A stretch of DNA of 64,000 nucleotides from assembly GCF_000172975.1 (NCBI RefSeq), contig NZ_ABTR02000001.1, forward strand, positions 1,030,501 through 1,094,500. Reading direction: 5' to 3'. This DNA is from Dethiosulfovibrio peptidovorans DSM 11002 (GTDB lineage Bacteria > Synergistota > Synergistia > Synergistales > Dethiosulfovibrionaceae). The position numbers and the translations under genes are program-made. The notes below the pieces were generated by a model, which saw only the letters and a list, made by a program, of their open reading frames with translations, did no database searches and had not been told where the DNA came from. This document shows, one piece after another, positions 12,500 to 19,367 of the stretch (position 1 is the first letter of the stretch; every line of letters starts with the position of its first letter).

Positions 12500-12700
12500 A
12501 GTTAGAAAGACCTCACTTGCTTGTCGATCGGTAAGTTAGTTAATATAAACAAAAATGTCAAGGGGCAAAGAGGGCCGTTCCCGCTCAAATGGCTGTACGA
12601 GATCTCTCGTTGAGGATATAATCTCTATTCGGTTGTGTAATTTTATCGGGGTCAGAATAAGATGGGCTATTGGATAGGGTGTATCGGAAGAAATAAAAAA

Positions 12701-13447
12701 ATGAATTTTTCGAGGTGGTTGTCTGTGAGAAGGTTTCTTAGCAGGTCGTTTCTTTTAAGGGTCTTTCTGCCGGTGGTCCTGATAGCCGGGGTCGTGGCTT
12801 TCAAGCCGTCCAGAGATTGGATAAAACAGGTATTCTTGATGTTTCAGCTTCTGGACGTGAACCTTATTCGGGGATATATACTGTCGTTCGGCATTTGGGC
12901 TCCTGTTATGTCCTTTTTTCTCATGGTGTTTCAGTCGGTTATAGCTCCGCTTCCGGCGTTTCTGATAACCTTCGCCAACGCCGGGCTTTTCGGTTGGTGG
13001 AAGGGAGCTATCCTGTCCTGGTCGAGCGCCATGGCCGGTGCGGCTCTATGTTTCTTCATAGCCAGATGGTATGGCAGAGGCCCGGTTGAGCGTCTCACCT
13101 CCAAGGCGGGACTCGAAGGGGTAGACCGCTTCTTCGAACGCTACGGCAACTACGCCGTTTTCGTGGCGAGGCTCCTTCCCTTCGTGTCCTTCGATATCGT
13201 AAGCTACGGGGCCGGACTGACCTCCATGAAGTTCTGGCCGTTTTTCCTGGCCACCGGGTTAGGGCAGCTGCCGGCCACCGTAGTCTACTCTTATGTGGGA
13301 GGGATGTTGACCGAGGGGACGAGACGTTTCGTCCTGGCCCTTTCCCTGCTTTTCGTCTTGACCGCTTTGGCCTCTCTGTGGAAAAAAATCTATAGGGATC
13401 GCAGGGACTCGGAAGGTTGCGTCGATCTACCCTCAGGGGATCGATAG
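12701..13447 (+). CDS. TVP38/TMEM64 (VTT domain) membrane protein
   Basis: A membrane protein of up to 248 residues with five or six helices and the VTT-domain pattern: a FANAGLFGWWKGA glycine-rich turn, a polar ARWYGRGPVERL linker, and VFVARLLPFVSFDIVSYGAGLTSM followed by GLGQLPATVVYSYVGG. These are the conserved G-x-x-F and R-x-(I/L)P-x-x-x-x-D/N motifs. The start is uncertain among ATG 12701, TTG 12719 and GTG 12725; GAGG at 12712 fits the last best. It ends 3 bases from the convergent rhodanese gene. TVP38 proteins commonly accompany rhodaneses and selenodomain transferases. Confidence 0.85.
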   Translation: MNFSRWLSVRRFLSRSFLLRVFLPVVLIAGVVAFKPSRDWIKQVFLMFQLLDVNLIRGYILSFGIWAPVMSFFLMVFQSVIAPLPAFLITFANAGLFGWWKGAILSWSSAMAGAALCFFIARWYGRGPVERLTSKAGLEGVDRFFERYGNYAVFVARLLPFVSFDIVSYGAGLTSMKFWPFFLATGLGQLPATVVYSYVGGMLTEGTRRFVLALSLLFVLTALASLWKKIYRDRRDSEGCVDLPSGDR

Positions 13448-13450
13448 ACG

Positions 13451-14377
13451 TTATTTCTCTATCGGCATGTCCTCGTTTCCGCCCCACTCGTAGATGGATC
13501 CCTCGTAGTTTCTCACCCGCTCAAAGCCGACGGCTCTGAGAACCGAGGTAACGTACCCCGATCTTATGCCCATCGTTCAGTAAACGGTGAAGGAATCCTG
13601 CGGAGTCAGTCCGAATCTATCTTTCATGATGGATTTTATTTCCTCCGCCGATTTGGGGCTGCCGTCTTTGTTCAGTATGTCCAGCCACAGCATCCACTCG
13701 GATCCGGCTATGTGGCCGCCTCTTGGTTCTCCGGCGTTGGTGCTGCCGTCGAACTCCTTTTTGGTTCTAGTATCGATGATGAGTTCCTTTCCCAAGGAGC
13801 TATACACCTGATCCATAGTGGTGTACCAGGATGGATCGTATTCGTGAAGGGTGAGTGCCCCTTCGTTCGAGGGGGAAGGTTTCGCCACCTTTCTCGTCAG
13901 GTCGTATCCCAGCGAACGATAGAGGGGCAGTCCACCGTAGAGTAGTTTCACGTTCTTCATTCCGGCCATCTTCAATTGCCAGAAGTTGCGTCCGTCCGCT
14001 CCGGGGCCCTTGAACATGTCGGAATACAAAACCACTATGGAATCGTCGTTCACTCCCAGTTCTCTCAGTTTTTTCTCTAGACGATCTATTGGAAGGGAGG
14101 TTCCCCAACCGGGGTCGCCAGGTCTTCCTACCGTTTTTGAGAGGAAGTGAAAACCGATGTTTACCGCTCCCGGAATGTGTCCCTTCCGGTAGACCTTGGG
14201 ATTGTTTCCGTCCAACAGGACCAGCCTGGGGTCGCCTAACATCGAATGGAGCTTCTGCGGCGTGATGAAGTACTCGGGGTGGACGAATCCGGAAAGATCC
14301 GGCTCTCCGCCCCAAGCGGTCGCCGAGATGGTCAGCATGCATAACGCGAACCACACTCGGAGAAGAGTTTGCTTCAT
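13451..14377 (-). CDS. Secreted two-domain rhodanese, probable selenoprotein (in-frame TGA)
   Basis: ATG 14377 (AAAGGAG eight bases upstream) opens a signal peptide ending near ATAWG, then two rhodanese domains of about 308 residues in total. The frame meets TGA at codon 267 (13577-13579), exactly where the catalytic Cys of CXXGXR belongs. Reading on gives T-M-G-I-R-S-G-Y and 41 conserved residues to TAA at 13451-13453, including NYEGSIYEWGG, the usual rhodanese C terminus. The N-terminal domain has Ser in its loop (LYSDMFKG), so this TGA is the only candidate catalytic site. A 10-bp hairpin follows the TGA. Selenocysteine insertion explains all of this; a fresh nonsense mutation is the alternative. 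Automatic callers would truncate it to 266 residues. Confidence 0.85.
13541..13563 (-). promoter_or_regulatory. Candidate bacterial SECIS hairpin
   Basis: In the mRNA, bases 14-36 after the UGA fold into a 10-bp stem (three G-U wobbles) closed by a 3-base loop CGU; the loop lies 24-26 bases after the UGA and has G as its second base. This agrees with the general bacterial SECIS model (short stem, small loop with an early G, loop about 16-37 bases from UGA). It was found by hand folding, not by a program. Confidence 0.6.
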
Positions 14378-14494
14378 TTAAGTAACTCCTTTCATATGAA
14401 GGTGCTATCATCATGCGATCCCTACGAAAAGGGATTATACACATTATAACCTGCGGTGACCAGGGTTGCCGTGTGGATAGAAGGAGGTCGAGAG

Positions 14495-15592
14495 TTGAAA
14501 TTGAACGAGGCCGCTTGCCCGGAATTACGGGTTTTCGCCGATAAATGTGTCGATTGCGGAATGTGTCTGAAGGGATGTATTATGTCCGACCAGCTGGAGG
14601 AGGGACCGGGGAAAGTAGTCTCCCATTTTCTTAAAAACGGCGTGATCGAGGACGACTGGCCCTTCCGTTGTTCCCTTTGCGGCTACTGTTCCAGTGTCTG
14701 TCCCGTAGGAGCGGATCTCAGGTCCGTCATGACCGCCCTCAGAAAAAAGGCCTGCGTAAAGCCGTCCTTAAAAATGAAAAAACTTTTTTTCGGAGTACTC
14801 GTGTTCCAGTTTATGGCGGCCTGGAAACATATGGGGACCCCTCCGGTCTTTCCGAAGGGTAAGGGAAATAGGTTGTTTTTCCCGGGGTGTGCCTTGGCGT
14901 CCTCCGATCCGGAGCTGGTGCTGATGACCTGGAGAGAGCTCCGTTCCCTGGATTCCGACATGGGAGTTATGGTCGGTTGCTGTGGAACTCCCGCCGCGTC
15001 TCTCGGGCGAGACGACGTTGCCGGAAGGATAAGGGATGGGCTGGCTAAAACCCTTAGATCCTGTGGGGTCGAGGAGATCGTGGTGGCCTGTCCGAACTGT
15101 CTGAAGGCCCTGTCGAGCCTTCCCGTGAAGGTGTCGTCCATATGGGGTTACCTGGGGGGTAACGCCTCTCTGTCCGGATCTCTACATGCCGAGTTAGAGG
15201 AGGCCATGTTCCACTCTCCCTGTCCTCTCAGGGACGACGAAAGGGAGTTGACCGAGGTCGAGAGGCTGGCGGAAGCGGTATGCCCGTCGATACGCACCGA
15301 TCCCTACGGTTCGGAAGGCGGACTTTGCTGTGGGGCGGGGGGAATGGTTCCCATCGTTCATCCCGAGGTCTTATCGTCCTGGTCCGAGAGGATTTCCCGC
15401 TACAGACGTAACGGGGAGACGGTGGTCTGCTGCTGTCAGAGCTGCGTGGACTCTTTAGGGGGAGGAAGCTCCGGCGTAGTGCATCTCCTGAGGTTGCTGC
15501 TGGGAGGTGCTTCGCCGCCTCCTCCTACGGGATTGGCTAGATGGGCCAACCGCAGGAAACTGAGAAGGGCGATATTCGACGACGCAAAATGA
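14495..15592 (+). CDS. Fe-S protein with ferredoxin and CCG (heterodisulfide-reductase-like) domains
   Basis: A 365-residue protein. The N terminus has two 4Fe-4S motifs, CVDCGMCLKGC and CSLCGYCSSVCPVG. Two cysteine-rich CCG-type modules follow: PGCALAS with GCCGTPAA and CPNC, then SPCPLRDD with LCCGAGGM and CCQSC. This is the HdrD/GlpC/LutA-type layout used for electron transfer to or from thiol-disulfide or quinone partners. TTG 14495 is chosen because AAGGAGG sits 7 bases upstream; the frame from 14456 has no ribosome site. Divergent from the rhodanese and followed by the radical SAM gene, it is a plausible redox partner for sulfur chemistry. Confidence 0.85.
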   Translation: MKLNEAACPELRVFADKCVDCGMCLKGCIMSDQLEEGPGKVVSHFLKNGVIEDDWPFRCSLCGYCSSVCPVGADLRSVMTALRKKACVKPSLKMKKLFFGVLVFQFMAAWKHMGTPPVFPKGKGNRLFFPGCALASSDPELVLMTWRELRSLDSDMGVMVGCCGTPAASLGRDDVAGRIRDGLAKTLRSCGVEEIVVACPNCLKALSSLPVKVSSIWGYLGGNASLSGSLHAELEEAMFHSPCPLRDDERELTEVERLAEAVCPSIRTDPYGSEGGLCCGAGGMVPIVHPEVLSSWSERISRYRRNGETVVCCCQSCVDSLGGGSSGVVHLLRLLLGGASPPPPTGLARWANRRKLRRAIFDDAK

Positions 15593-15635: not shown

Positions 15636-16637
15636 ATGACTTGGAAAATAGCGTCTAAAACAGGGGAAATACTGAAAAAGGGCTCGGACGGCTCGGGAAT
15701 CGATAGGGACGAGGCTCTTTATCTGATGGCTCTTCCCTTGAGATCCAAGGATACCTATGCCTTGATGGAAGCGGCCGATACCCTTTCCAGGGATACCTTC
15801 GGCAACAAGGGGGAGAATCACTTTCACATAGGTCTGAACGTGGCTCCCTGTCCTCTCAATTGCAGTTTCTGCTCTCTGACCGTGAAGGCCGGAATCTTCA
15901 AGGAATCTATAGATTTCTCCGACGATCAGATTCTTGAGTGGGCGAGACACGGTGAATCCCGCAAAGCCGATTCATTGAATCTCATGACCACCGGGAGCTT
16001 TCCCATGGAACGGCTCCTCCACGTAGGCAGGCTCCTTCGGGACAACGTCGACGTTCCCCTGGTGGCCAACACCAGAGACATAACCCACGAGGAGGGAGAG
16101 GCCCTTCTGGAGGCCGGTTTCGTAGGGGCGTATCACGCGGTGCGGCTAGGTGAGGGCAGAGATACCCCTCTAAAAAGGGATAAGAGAATCGAGACTATCA
16201 AGGTCCTCAAAGACGTGGGGCTGAGATGGATGAACTGCGTAGAGCCTGTGGGACCGGAGCACGAGGCGGAGGAGATAGTCGATCTTATGTTTCTGGCGAG
16301 AAAATACGAGGCCACCTACAGCGGAGTAATGAGGAGGGTCAACTTCCCCGGTTCTCCCATGGAAAAATACGGCATGATAACCGAGAGGGAGATGTCCAGG
16401 ATGGTGGCGGTGTCCCGTCTGGTGATGGGAACCGTGCCGAAGGCCCACTGCACCCACGAGCCCAACTCCCTTTCTCTGATAGCAGGGGGCAATCTCCTCT
16501 TTCCCGAGGTGGGGTCCAGCCCCAGAGACGGGGAGGCCGACACGGGCAAGGGAAGGGGAAACACCGTCGAGAACTGCGCTCGTATCCACATGGAGACCGG
16601 ATGGGATCCGACCAGAAAATCGAACTGTTTCGCCTAA
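15636..16637 (+). CDS. Radical SAM enzyme, biotin-synthase-like
   Basis: A 333-residue protein with the radical SAM cluster motif C72-x3-C76-x2-C79 (CPLNCSFC) followed by a BioB-like barrel: NLMTTGSFPMERLL, VPLVANTRDITHEEGEALLEAGF and GAYHAVRLGEGRDTPL. A C-terminal AHCTHEPN segment and a final SNCFA tail carry further Cys and His residues. The sequence lacks several features of true biotin synthase, and no other biotin genes are nearby. Members of this BioB-like branch include methyltransferase-like and sulfur-inserting enzymes, so the reaction is open. It lies 43 bases after the Fe-S gene and before a structured intergenic element. Confidence 0.85.
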   Translation: MTWKIASKTGEILKKGSDGSGIDRDEALYLMALPLRSKDTYALMEAADTLSRDTFGNKGENHFHIGLNVAPCPLNCSFCSLTVKAGIFKESIDFSDDQILEWARHGESRKADSLNLMTTGSFPMERLLHVGRLLRDNVDVPLVANTRDITHEEGEALLEAGFVGAYHAVRLGEGRDTPLKRDKRIETIKVLKDVGLRWMNCVEPVGPEHEAEEIVDLMFLARKYEATYSGVMRRVNFPGSPMEKYGMITEREMSRMVAVSRLVMGTVPKAHCTHEPNSLSLIAGGNLLFPEVGSSPRDGEADTGKGRGNTVENCARIHMETGWDPTRKSNCFA

Positions 16638-16903: not shown

Positions 16904-17839
16904 ATGAGGAAGCTAGTTTTTTCGATTCTTCTGTTTCTCTGTTTCGCGGCTGCCTCTTCCGCGAAGGAGGCCGTAAGGGTCGGGACCTGGAAAACCGCTC
17001 AGACCATACAGCCTTTTTTCTACGGCGATTACGCCTCCGAAGACGTGGAGGTCCTCTCCTTCACCAATCCGGCCGATCAGAAGACGGCTCTTCTGGCGGG
17101 AAGTCTCGGCATGTGCGGCACCACCATCGCTCACGCCATACACTCCGCCTCCATGGGGCAGCCGGTCGTTTTGGTAGCATCTCTCTGCAACAGGTGCTCC
17201 GCCCTGGTTGTAGGAAAGGACGGCCCCATAGAGAAGATCTCCCAGCTCAGAGGTAAAAGGATAGGTTACGTCCCCGGGACGATGCACGAGATACTGTTGC
17301 GAGAGGCCCTGACCCGTAACGGCCTGTCCCCGGAGAAGGACGTCAGCCTGGTCAGGATAGACTTCTTCGACATGGGAACCGCCCTAGCCCGAGGAAGTAT
17401 AGACGCTTTTCTGTCCGGAGAGCCCTTCCCCACCCTCGCCGTGGCCGATGGATACGGCCGTGTACTGTCCTATCCCTATTACGACGACAGCGTGGGGACC
17501 ATAAACGCCGGGATGTTGGTCACGGAGAGGCTCATAGAGGAAGATCCCGACATGGTGATGGACCTGGTGAGGGCTCATGTCAGGGCCACCGAGTTTTTAA
17601 GGTCCAATCCCGACGTATGGCTGAAAAAAACGGTCTCCTTCGGAACGAAAAAGGAGATACTGGAGAAGGCTTCGGCCAACATAGAACTTGCCTGGGACAT
17701 GGACGACGCCTTCGTGAAGAGGGTCAAGGCACTCGGCGCCAGGATGGAGGAGCTTCACGTAATAGACCGCCAGCCCGACTACGAAAGGCTTTTCGACCTC
17801 TCCTTCGTTCGCAGGGTCAAGGAGGAGATGGGGTTTTGA
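16904..17839 (+). CDS. ABC importer substrate-binding protein, NMT1/SsuA type
   Basis: A 311-residue protein. The signal peptide (about residues 1-20, FAAASSAKEA) and VRVGTWKTAQTIQPFFYGD lead into a type-II periplasmic binding fold. LLAGSLGMCGTTIAHAI and LRGKRIGYVPGTMHEILLREAL are the NMT1/THI5-like and SsuA/TauA segments. Three unusual cysteines occur at GMCG and LCNRC. The permease and ATPase genes overlap it, making a complete importer. The family carries sulfonates, pyrimidines or nitrate; here the sulfur neighbourhood favours a sulfur or metalloid compound, but that is inference. Confidence 0.85.
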   Translation: MRKLVFSILLFLCFAAASSAKEAVRVGTWKTAQTIQPFFYGDYASEDVEVLSFTNPADQKTALLAGSLGMCGTTIAHAIHSASMGQPVVLVASLCNRCSALVVGKDGPIEKISQLRGKRIGYVPGTMHEILLREALTRNGLSPEKDVSLVRIDFFDMGTALARGSIDAFLSGEPFPTLAVADGYGRVLSYPYYDDSVGTINAGMLVTERLIEEDPDMVMDLVRAHVRATEFLRSNPDVWLKKTVSFGTKKEILEKASANIELAWDMDDAFVKRVKALGARMEELHVIDRQPDYERLFDLSFVRRVKEEMGF

Positions 17840-18627
17840 CCAAAAGATCCCGGGCCTCTGCTTTTCTGCCCTGGATCGTTCCGACGTGCCTTCTGGGTGC
17901 CTGGTTCTGGGTATGCCGCACCGGAATAGTCCCGACTTATCTGCTGCCCGACCCGATGGACATAGGAAGATCCGCTTGGGTCTACCTGTTCGGCGAGGTC
18001 GGATCCGCCCCATACGCCGGGAGATTCGTAGCCGATCTATCGGCCAGCACCGGGAGGGTCGCCATGGGATTCGTCGCCGCGGTCGTCTTCGGTATACCTA
18101 TGGGTGTGGTCTCCGGCAGGGTCCCGATCGTCAGGAGCCTGTTGGGAACCACCGTAAACGGACTCCGCTCCGTGCCGGGAATAAGCTGGCTGCCTCTGGC
18201 CATGGTGTGGTTCGGCGTGGGCATGAAGACCACCGTCTTCCTGGTGGCCTTGGCTTCGTTTTTCCCCGTGTACGTCAACACCGCCATAGGGGCAGGAAAT
18301 GTCGATTTCATACTTTATCAGGTCGGTGCCACCATGGGGGTCGGCAGGATAAGGGGCGTTTTCGACATACTGCTGCCCGCCGCCATGCCCCAGATAATGA
18401 GCGGCCTCAGGTTGGGGCTTGGAACCTCCTGGGCGTATCTGGTTTTGGGGGAGCTGACCGGAGTTCCCTTCGGTCTGGGTGCCCTCATAATGGACGCCAG
18501 GATGATGGGAAGGATAGACATGATAATAGTCGGCATAGTGGTCATAGCCGCTATGGGAAGGCTGAGCGATCTGTTGCTGTCGTCGGCCATGAGATTTTTC
18601 TTTCGCTCGGCCCGGAGGATGGCGTGA
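17836..18627 (+). CDS. ABC importer permease, SsuC/TauC type
   Basis: A 263-residue inner-membrane protein with about six helices and the EAA-loop region GATMGVGRIRGVFDILLPAAMPQIMSG that docks with the ATPase, as in the BPD_transp_1 family. TTG 17836 overlaps the TGA of the binding-protein gene, and AAGGAGG at 17819-17825 lies 10 bases upstream. Longer frame extensions upstream are only the out-of-frame end of the previous gene. GIVPTYLLPDPMDI near the N terminus is typical of the aliphatic-sulfonate/taurine branch. Confidence 0.88.
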   Translation: MTKRSRASAFLPWIVPTCLLGAWFWVCRTGIVPTYLLPDPMDIGRSAWVYLFGEVGSAPYAGRFVADLSASTGRVAMGFVAAVVFGIPMGVVSGRVPIVRSLLGTTVNGLRSVPGISWLPLAMVWFGVGMKTTVFLVALASFFPVYVNTAIGAGNVDFILYQVGATMGVGRIRGVFDILLPAAMPQIMSGLRLGLGTSWAYLVLGELTGVPFGLGALIMDARMMGRIDMIIVGIVVIAAMGRLSDLLLSSAMRFFFRSARRMA

Positions 18628-19367
18628 GCCGTCTGAAAGGGACGGGGCCGGCCGCTCTGTCGGTTCGAGGGATCTCCAAGACCTTTCTGGAAAAGGACGG
18701 CGAACTAGAGGTTCTCTCGGACGTGTCGTTCGATATAGAAAAAGGCGAGCTGGTCTGCGTTTTGGGGCCGAGCGGTTGCGGAAAGAGTACTTTGCTGAAG
18801 ATAGTGGCGGGTCTTGAATCCCCCGACCGGGGAGACGTGTCTGTGGAGGGCCGGACTGTCTCGGGGCCGGGACGGGACAGATGCGTGGTCTTTCAGGAAG
18901 ACGCCCTCTTTCCCTGGCTTACAGTGGCGGAGAACGTGGCCTTCGGGGCGAAGGGAAGGATGGCCAAGTCGGAGCTGAGGTCCGAGGTGAAGCGGCATCT
19001 CGAGATGACCGGACTGTCTCGTTTCGCCGACTATCTTCCGAGAGAGATATCCGGTGGCATGAAGCAGAGGGTCGCTCTGGCCAGGGTCCTGATACTGAAG
19101 CCCAAGGTCCTGCTGATGGACGAGCCCTTCGGTGCCTTGGACGCCCAGACCAGGGAGGCCATGCAGGATTTGCTTCTCTCTCTTATAGAGGACCATTCCT
19201 ACACCGTGATGTTCATAACCCACGACGTGGGCGAGGCTGCCGCCATAGCCGATCGGGTGATCGTGATGGATAGATCTCCGGGCAGGATCAAGGCATTCTT
19301 GTCCACCGATGGTCTCGATCCCACGGAGGTTCGAGCCGAGTTGAGGTCGATCATGAAGGCTCGATGA
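18624..19367 (+). CDS. ABC importer ATP-binding protein, SsuB/TauB type
   Basis: A 247-residue ATPase with all motifs: Walker A GPSGCGKST, Q-loop FQEDALFPWLT, signature SGGMKQRVALARV, Walker B VLLMDEPFGALD and H-loop THDVGEAA. GTG 18624 overlaps the permease stop (GTGA), with GGAGGA five bases upstream. The SGGM variant and the overall sequence match the nitrate/sulfonate/taurine family. It completes the importer with the two preceding genes and is followed by the transferase fusion after 49 bases. Confidence 0.9.
   Translation: MSRLKGTGPAALSVRGISKTFLEKDGELEVLSDVSFDIEKGELVCVLGPSGCGKSTLLKIVAGLESPDRGDVSVEGRTVSGPGRDRCVVFQEDALFPWLTVAENVAFGAKGRMAKSELRSEVKRHLEMTGLSRFADYLPREISGGMKQRVALARVLILKPKVLLMDEPFGALDAQTREAMQDLLLSLIEDHSYTVMFITHDVGEAAAIADRVIVMDRSPGRIKAFLSTDGLDPTEVRAELRSIMKAR

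Follow-up and report, generated by a model that had tools for sequence, protein, structure and literature searches.

A predicted selenocysteine-containing tandem rhodanese at a VTT-linked locus of Dethiosulfovibrio peptidovorans

Results

A rhodanese gene interrupted by TGA

We analysed a 64,000-nucleotide stretch of the genome of Dethiosulfovibrio peptidovorans DSM 11002 (the window; all positions refer to it). Its minus strand carries a rhodanese gene with an in-frame TGA, flanked by genes for a membrane protein and an iron-sulfur protein:

12662..13447, plus strand: VTT-domain (DedA/TVP38-like) membrane protein, convergent with the rhodanese gene, tail to tail
13451..14377, minus strand: candidate selenocysteine (Sec) rhodanese gene, Pfam Rhodanese; 308 aa with UGA as Sec, 266 aa with UGA as stop
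13451..13453, minus strand: true stop TAA (TAG in relatives), from translation and comparison of relatives
13541..13563, minus strand: putative SECIS hairpin with a 10-bp stem, CGU loop at 13551-13553 and UGA-to-loop spacing of 23 nt, from folding
13577..13579, minus strand: in-frame TGA, predicted Sec267, at the catalytic Cys position, from translation, relatives and alignments
13478..13825, minus strand: rhodanese domain 2, approximately residues 185-300, loop U267-TMGIRSG, from Pfam and structure-sequence alignment
13922..14263, minus strand: rhodanese domain 1, residues 39-152, non-catalytic, loop Ser119, from Pfam and sequence
14309..14377, minus strand: predicted N-terminal export signal, about 23 residues, cleavage near AWG/GEPD, by eye
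14386..14392, minus strand: Shine-Dalgarno-like AAAGGAG preceding the ATG at 14377, read from the sequence
14456..15592, plus strand: 4Fe-4S/CCG oxidoreductase, divergent neighbour, related to NF045663 below its cut-off
16904..19367, plus strand: sulfonate/nitrate-type ABC transporter genes (SBP, permease, ATPase), syntenic in the genus

Read from 14377 to 13451, the frame translates as MKQTLLRV...FTVY*TMGIRSGYV...MPIEK* with one internal TGA, at 13579-13577, after which 41 codons lead to the TAA at 13453-13451. The protein starts with MKQTLLRVWFALCMLTISATAWGGEPD..., an apparent export signal to the eye, and continues into two rhodanese domains. A profile search matched Pfam Rhodanese over two stretches (E 2.6e-28). 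As in tandem rhodaneses of the TST/MST type, there are two PF00581 domains with a CxxGxR-type loop in the second, here with U replacing C. The protein is thus an apparent exported tandem rhodanese, the export signal being predicted by eye.

An earlier note on this DNA had placed the TGA exactly at the active-site Cys of the second rhodanese domain, and this placement is correct: the codon falls in VY-U-TMGIRSG and aligns to Cys. The note had also reasoned that a Ser in the loop of the other domain leaves catalysis to this residue. Ser119 does occupy the equivalent position in domain 1, and dependence on a single domain is normal, a non-catalytic first domain being usual in tandem rhodaneses. 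A plain gene call ends at Tyr266 and so deletes the active site, as the note had warned. The mature protein lacks Cys in 5/5 species, the sole Cys, residue 13, lying in the signal region of three. Sec267 is therefore its only predicted chalcogen nucleophile, and an intramolecular Se-S bond would be impossible.

The TGA and the frame beyond it are conserved

Among 14 family genomes, the gene occurs in five Dethiosulfovibrio genomes, the window's included (85-97% identity), and all five copies have one TGA in the same place. Two other Dethiosulfovibrio genomes in this set are without the gene, and thus it is not essential to the genus. Comparison of the window with its more distant relative G004 gave 117 synonymous and 74 non-synonymous differences in the codons ahead of the TGA, and 10 and 1 in the 40 codons compared beyond it. 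The latter proportion, 10/11, compares with 22% expected from random changes (binomial p = 3e-6). Across the five genomes, all 15 variable sites after the TGA are third codon positions (15/15), and the gene call placed no plus-strand gene over 13451-13576.

These comparisons show strong purifying selection on the frame beyond the TGA. Because the tail varies only at third positions, its 41 codons must be translated. The earlier note had both the codon count and the conservation right, and the close relatives keep TGA and a constrained tail instead of TGC or TGT followed by decay. It is the conservation across species of both the TGA and the following frame that places the feature beyond chance.

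Selenocysteine machinery and a SECIS-like hairpin

The D. peptidovorans genome (2,576,359 bp, three contigs) encodes a tRNA-Sec scoring 68.8 bits, above cut-off, on which ARAGORN agrees (anticodon TCA). It also holds selA (E 1e-167), selB (E 2e-108, at coordinates adjacent to selA) and selD, whose match itself contains one in-frame TGA. There are two grdA genes, each with one in-frame TGA. Control genomes often give weak matches to tRNA-Sec and SelB; the matches used here exceed curated cut-offs. All four components that the earlier note proposed to look for are therefore present, and absence of Sec machinery, one of its grounds for doubt, was not what we found. Given machinery above cut-offs and the TGA codons of selD and grdA, UGA is very probably read as Sec in other genes of the cell too.

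Downstream of the UGA lies the hairpin GAUCGGGGUA-CGU-UACCUCGGUU, whose 10-bp stem and CGU loop together occupy bases 14 to 36 after the codon. For the sequence following the UGA as a whole, the folding energy is -20.8 kcal/mol (z -2.0); the hairpin alone folds at -10.6 kcal/mol. The published bSECIS model asks for a loop of 3-9 nt, a stem of 4-16 bp, G in the first two loop positions, a spacing of 16-37 nt and an MFE of -7.5 or lower (PMC13188914); the hairpin, with a loop of 3 nt, G second and a spacing of 23 nt, lies inside these limits. The hairpins of relatives G001 and G003 are identical to it, so that three species fit the model. In G004 and G005 the stem is retained and closes a loop of five bases (ACGUA or AUGUA) in which G is third; these two miss the G-position or energy limit and are slightly off the strict model.

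The window has 1609 TGAs, of which 90 fit the model and 33 (~2%) have an equally strong hairpin; shuffled sequences reach that strength in 1.6%. The hairpin is consistent with a SECIS, weak evidence by itself and not decisive. Since about 2% of window TGAs do as well, we do not rely on an argument from the SECIS alone. What the earlier note said of the stem, the loop and the 14-36 position is exact; the match to a bacterial SECIS, taken by itself, is modest, and in two relatives it is slightly off-model.

Homologues carry Cys or Asp at the TGA position

Whole-length alignments to three solved rhodaneses, 1e0c (E 6e-29), 3p3a and 1uar, place their catalytic Cys opposite the TGA. When 188 Synergistota genomes were scanned, TGA turned up in only five genes, all from Dethiosulfovibrio. 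Of 25 loci from other genera inspected from that scan, 2/25 have Cys and 23/25 have Asp. The nearest Cys homologues, L041 and L043 (~34-35% identity), read CTIGIRSG, and their Cys aligns to the TGA. This answers the note's question about homologues at this codon: TGA in close relatives and Cys in the nearest Cys forms. A homologue on an Enterococcus gilvus plasmid (CTAGIRSA) likewise has Cys there. Relatives in plasmid and phage records are all below 60% identity, and two plasmid matches were read in detail.

A tree groups the five Sec proteins together and, separately, the 23 Asp proteins (96/93). The Cys proteins fall outside the Asp group, and because of long branches the point at which the Sec clade attaches is tentative. 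The Asp-form family (L042, L044-L065), common in Synergistota, has Asp for the catalytic Cys of domain 2, with YDTAGVRSA at the catalytic loop. In some of its members the loop of domain 1 holds a Cys (YCDAGGWGQ) and the N terminus is extended by long stretches of low complexity. Asp-form tandem rhodaneses are possibly non-catalytic or differently catalytic.

Gene neighbourhood

The tail-to-tail pairing of the VTT and rhodanese genes recurs in the four other Dethiosulfovibrio genomes with the gene. A VTT-type gene also adjoins the Cys forms L041 and L043 and that of E. gilvus (TVP38/TMEM64 family, 51% identity), where the pair follows arsB-arsC. In Ilyobacter, a rhodanese and a VTT-type domain are fused in one protein. 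Pairs or fusions of Cys or Sec rhodaneses with VTT proteins lie at L078 2912-4551, L079 4001-5548, L076, L077 and window 12662-14377. In contrast, a VTT protein match was found near 0/23 Asp-form Synergistota paralogues, in flanks of at most 1.5 kb. This association of VTT genes with the Cys and Sec forms is what our analysis adds.

The product of 14456-15592 has diclust_near_Sec (NF045663) as its best NCBIfam match (E 2e-46, below cut-off), and a longer relative of this Fe-S/CCG protein lies beside the Ilyobacter fusion gene (L079 1366-3960). A radical SAM gene at 15636-16637, syntenic in the genus and adjoining the sulfonate-type ABC transporter, encodes a protein with remote similarity to BioB (E 1.5e-13, well short of the cut-off). 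Whether the ABC transporter genes are linked to the Sec-rhodanese enzyme is uncertain. Prompted by these neighbours, we also compared them with the SAO (Sec-assisted organometallic) operon, and this assignment was rejected (SaoX 51/300, SaoP 125/295 and SaoA 241/360 bits vs cut-offs). Relative G001 has another multi-domain rhodanese of 456 aa upstream of the VTT gene (L073 3772-5142), for which the search of the window's genome listed no comparable match.

Discussion

Our results make it very likely that the locus encodes an exported tandem thiosulfate/polysulfide sulfurtransferase with Sec in place of the catalytic Cys, its UGA decoded through SelB and the hairpin. The marks of a bacterial selenoprotein come together here: UGA at a Cys position, full Sec machinery, a conserved UGA with coding selection, and a bSECIS-like hairpin. 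From this combination, the single catalytic residue is almost certainly selenocysteine.

How else might the TGA be explained? It could be a real stop that leaves a truncated protein of 266 aa and a decaying downstream frame, and the standard gene call does end there. However, the same TGA persists in five genomes down to 85% identity, the tail varies at third positions only with no plus-strand gene to impose that pattern, and truncation would remove the active site; a true stop is thus very improbable. Misreading of a TGC or TGT codon by sequencing or assembly has only its general possibility in its favour and is more improbable still, given the same TGA in independent assemblies of five species. 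Translation of the tail excludes a simple stop, decay and sequencing error together. A frame by itself cannot tell which residue is inserted, and the UGA might be read as Trp or by some other suppression. Against such read-through stand the full Sec machinery, the other Sec genes and the SECIS-like hairpin, and homologues align Cys, not Trp, at this position; we give it as little credence as a real stop.

Sec-rhodaneses are not new. They were predicted in 2005 in COG2897 (PMC1088965) and listed in later surveys (PMC2398784; PMC9312934), and a recent list holds five forms of rhodanese-like selenoproteins, of which forms 2 and 4 are UxxG (PMC13188914). Synergistetes have already been named a selenoprotein-rich phylum (PMC5029168). 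Form 4 (COG2897/SseA, first predicted in the Sargasso Sea set) is a COG2897-type rhodanese with Sec in a UxxG motif. The Dethiosulfovibrio protein has two rhodanese domains and UTMG, and is from Synergistota, predicted to be exported and without other Cys, a comparison made by description only. Form 2 (COG0607, PspE-type) shares the UxxG motif, and the Dethiosulfovibrio protein differs from it in having two domains. TsoB (NF045694) and form 3 (NF041203) are rhodanese selenoproteins with different motifs, UxxxxU and CxU. TsoB, considered because of the neighbouring genes, was rejected: NF045694 is absent among matches at E up to 1 and the protein has one Sec only. NF041203, with a cut-off of 115, gives a score of 14. 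The Cys-type thiosulfate sulfurtransferases 1e0c, 3p3a and 1uar share its two-domain layout over the whole length (E ~1e-28) with the catalytic loop aligned; they have Cys in place of Sec, and the Dethiosulfovibrio protein adds a predicted N-terminal export signal. We found no naming of this gene in the open literature, supplementary tables aside, and it may figure in a 2016 survey of sequenced Sec users. The class with this motif is already catalogued, and that the Dethiosulfovibrio gene adds to it is well supported.

How would such an enzyme be made and work? SelB and Sec-tRNA(Sec) would decode the UGA at 13577-13579, aided by the hairpin 14-36 nt downstream. By established rhodanese chemistry, sulfane sulfur is accepted by the catalytic residue and then transferred onward. 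In the periplasm, the Sec267 selenolate may take sulfane sulfur from thiosulfate or polysulfide, form a persulfide-like Se-S intermediate and hand the sulfur to an external thiol or reductase. Thiosulfate or polysulfide is the most likely donor because of the metabolism of the host: D. peptidovorans SEBR 4207 is a peptide-fermenting anaerobe that makes H2S, with thiosulfate and elemental sulfur serving as electron acceptors (PMC3035263).

What the protein does for the cell is a separate question. From gene neighbourhood alone, the VTT-domain membrane protein probably acts in the pathway of the rhodanese. A dedicated extracytoplasmic Sec sulfurtransferase, working with a DedA/TVP38-type partner and the Fe-S oxidoreductase to carry sulfane sulfur in dissimilatory thiosulfate/sulfur reduction, is conceivable though rather unlikely. 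If true, it would give Sec a role in energy-linked sulfur metabolism of which we found no description. A selenoprotein with another role, in stress, in arsenic or other metalloid defence, or in a lipid-carrier process with the DedA-like neighbour, is a serious prospect, held at a little under even; it bears on the role alone and leaves the Sec reading untouched. The arsB/arsC genes beside the E. gilvus Cys homologue and its TVP38 gene point this way, as do DedA-rhodanese fusions already on record and unexplained (PMC10127716). The host's reduction of thiosulfate and sulfur and the thiosulfate sulfurtransferase fold speak against it, neither decisively.

Since no NCBIfam model reaches its own cut-off on the protein, automatic annotation will likely end it immediately ahead of its active site. 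The DedA literature treats the pairing with rhodaneses as unclear, and the link of Cys or Sec rhodaneses to VTT proteins offers a starting point for explaining it. Moreover, in D. peptidovorans, a cultured reducer of thiosulfate and sulfur from a selenoprotein-rich phylum, an exported rhodanese whose only chalcogen nucleophile is predicted to be Sec would provide a clean and testable case.
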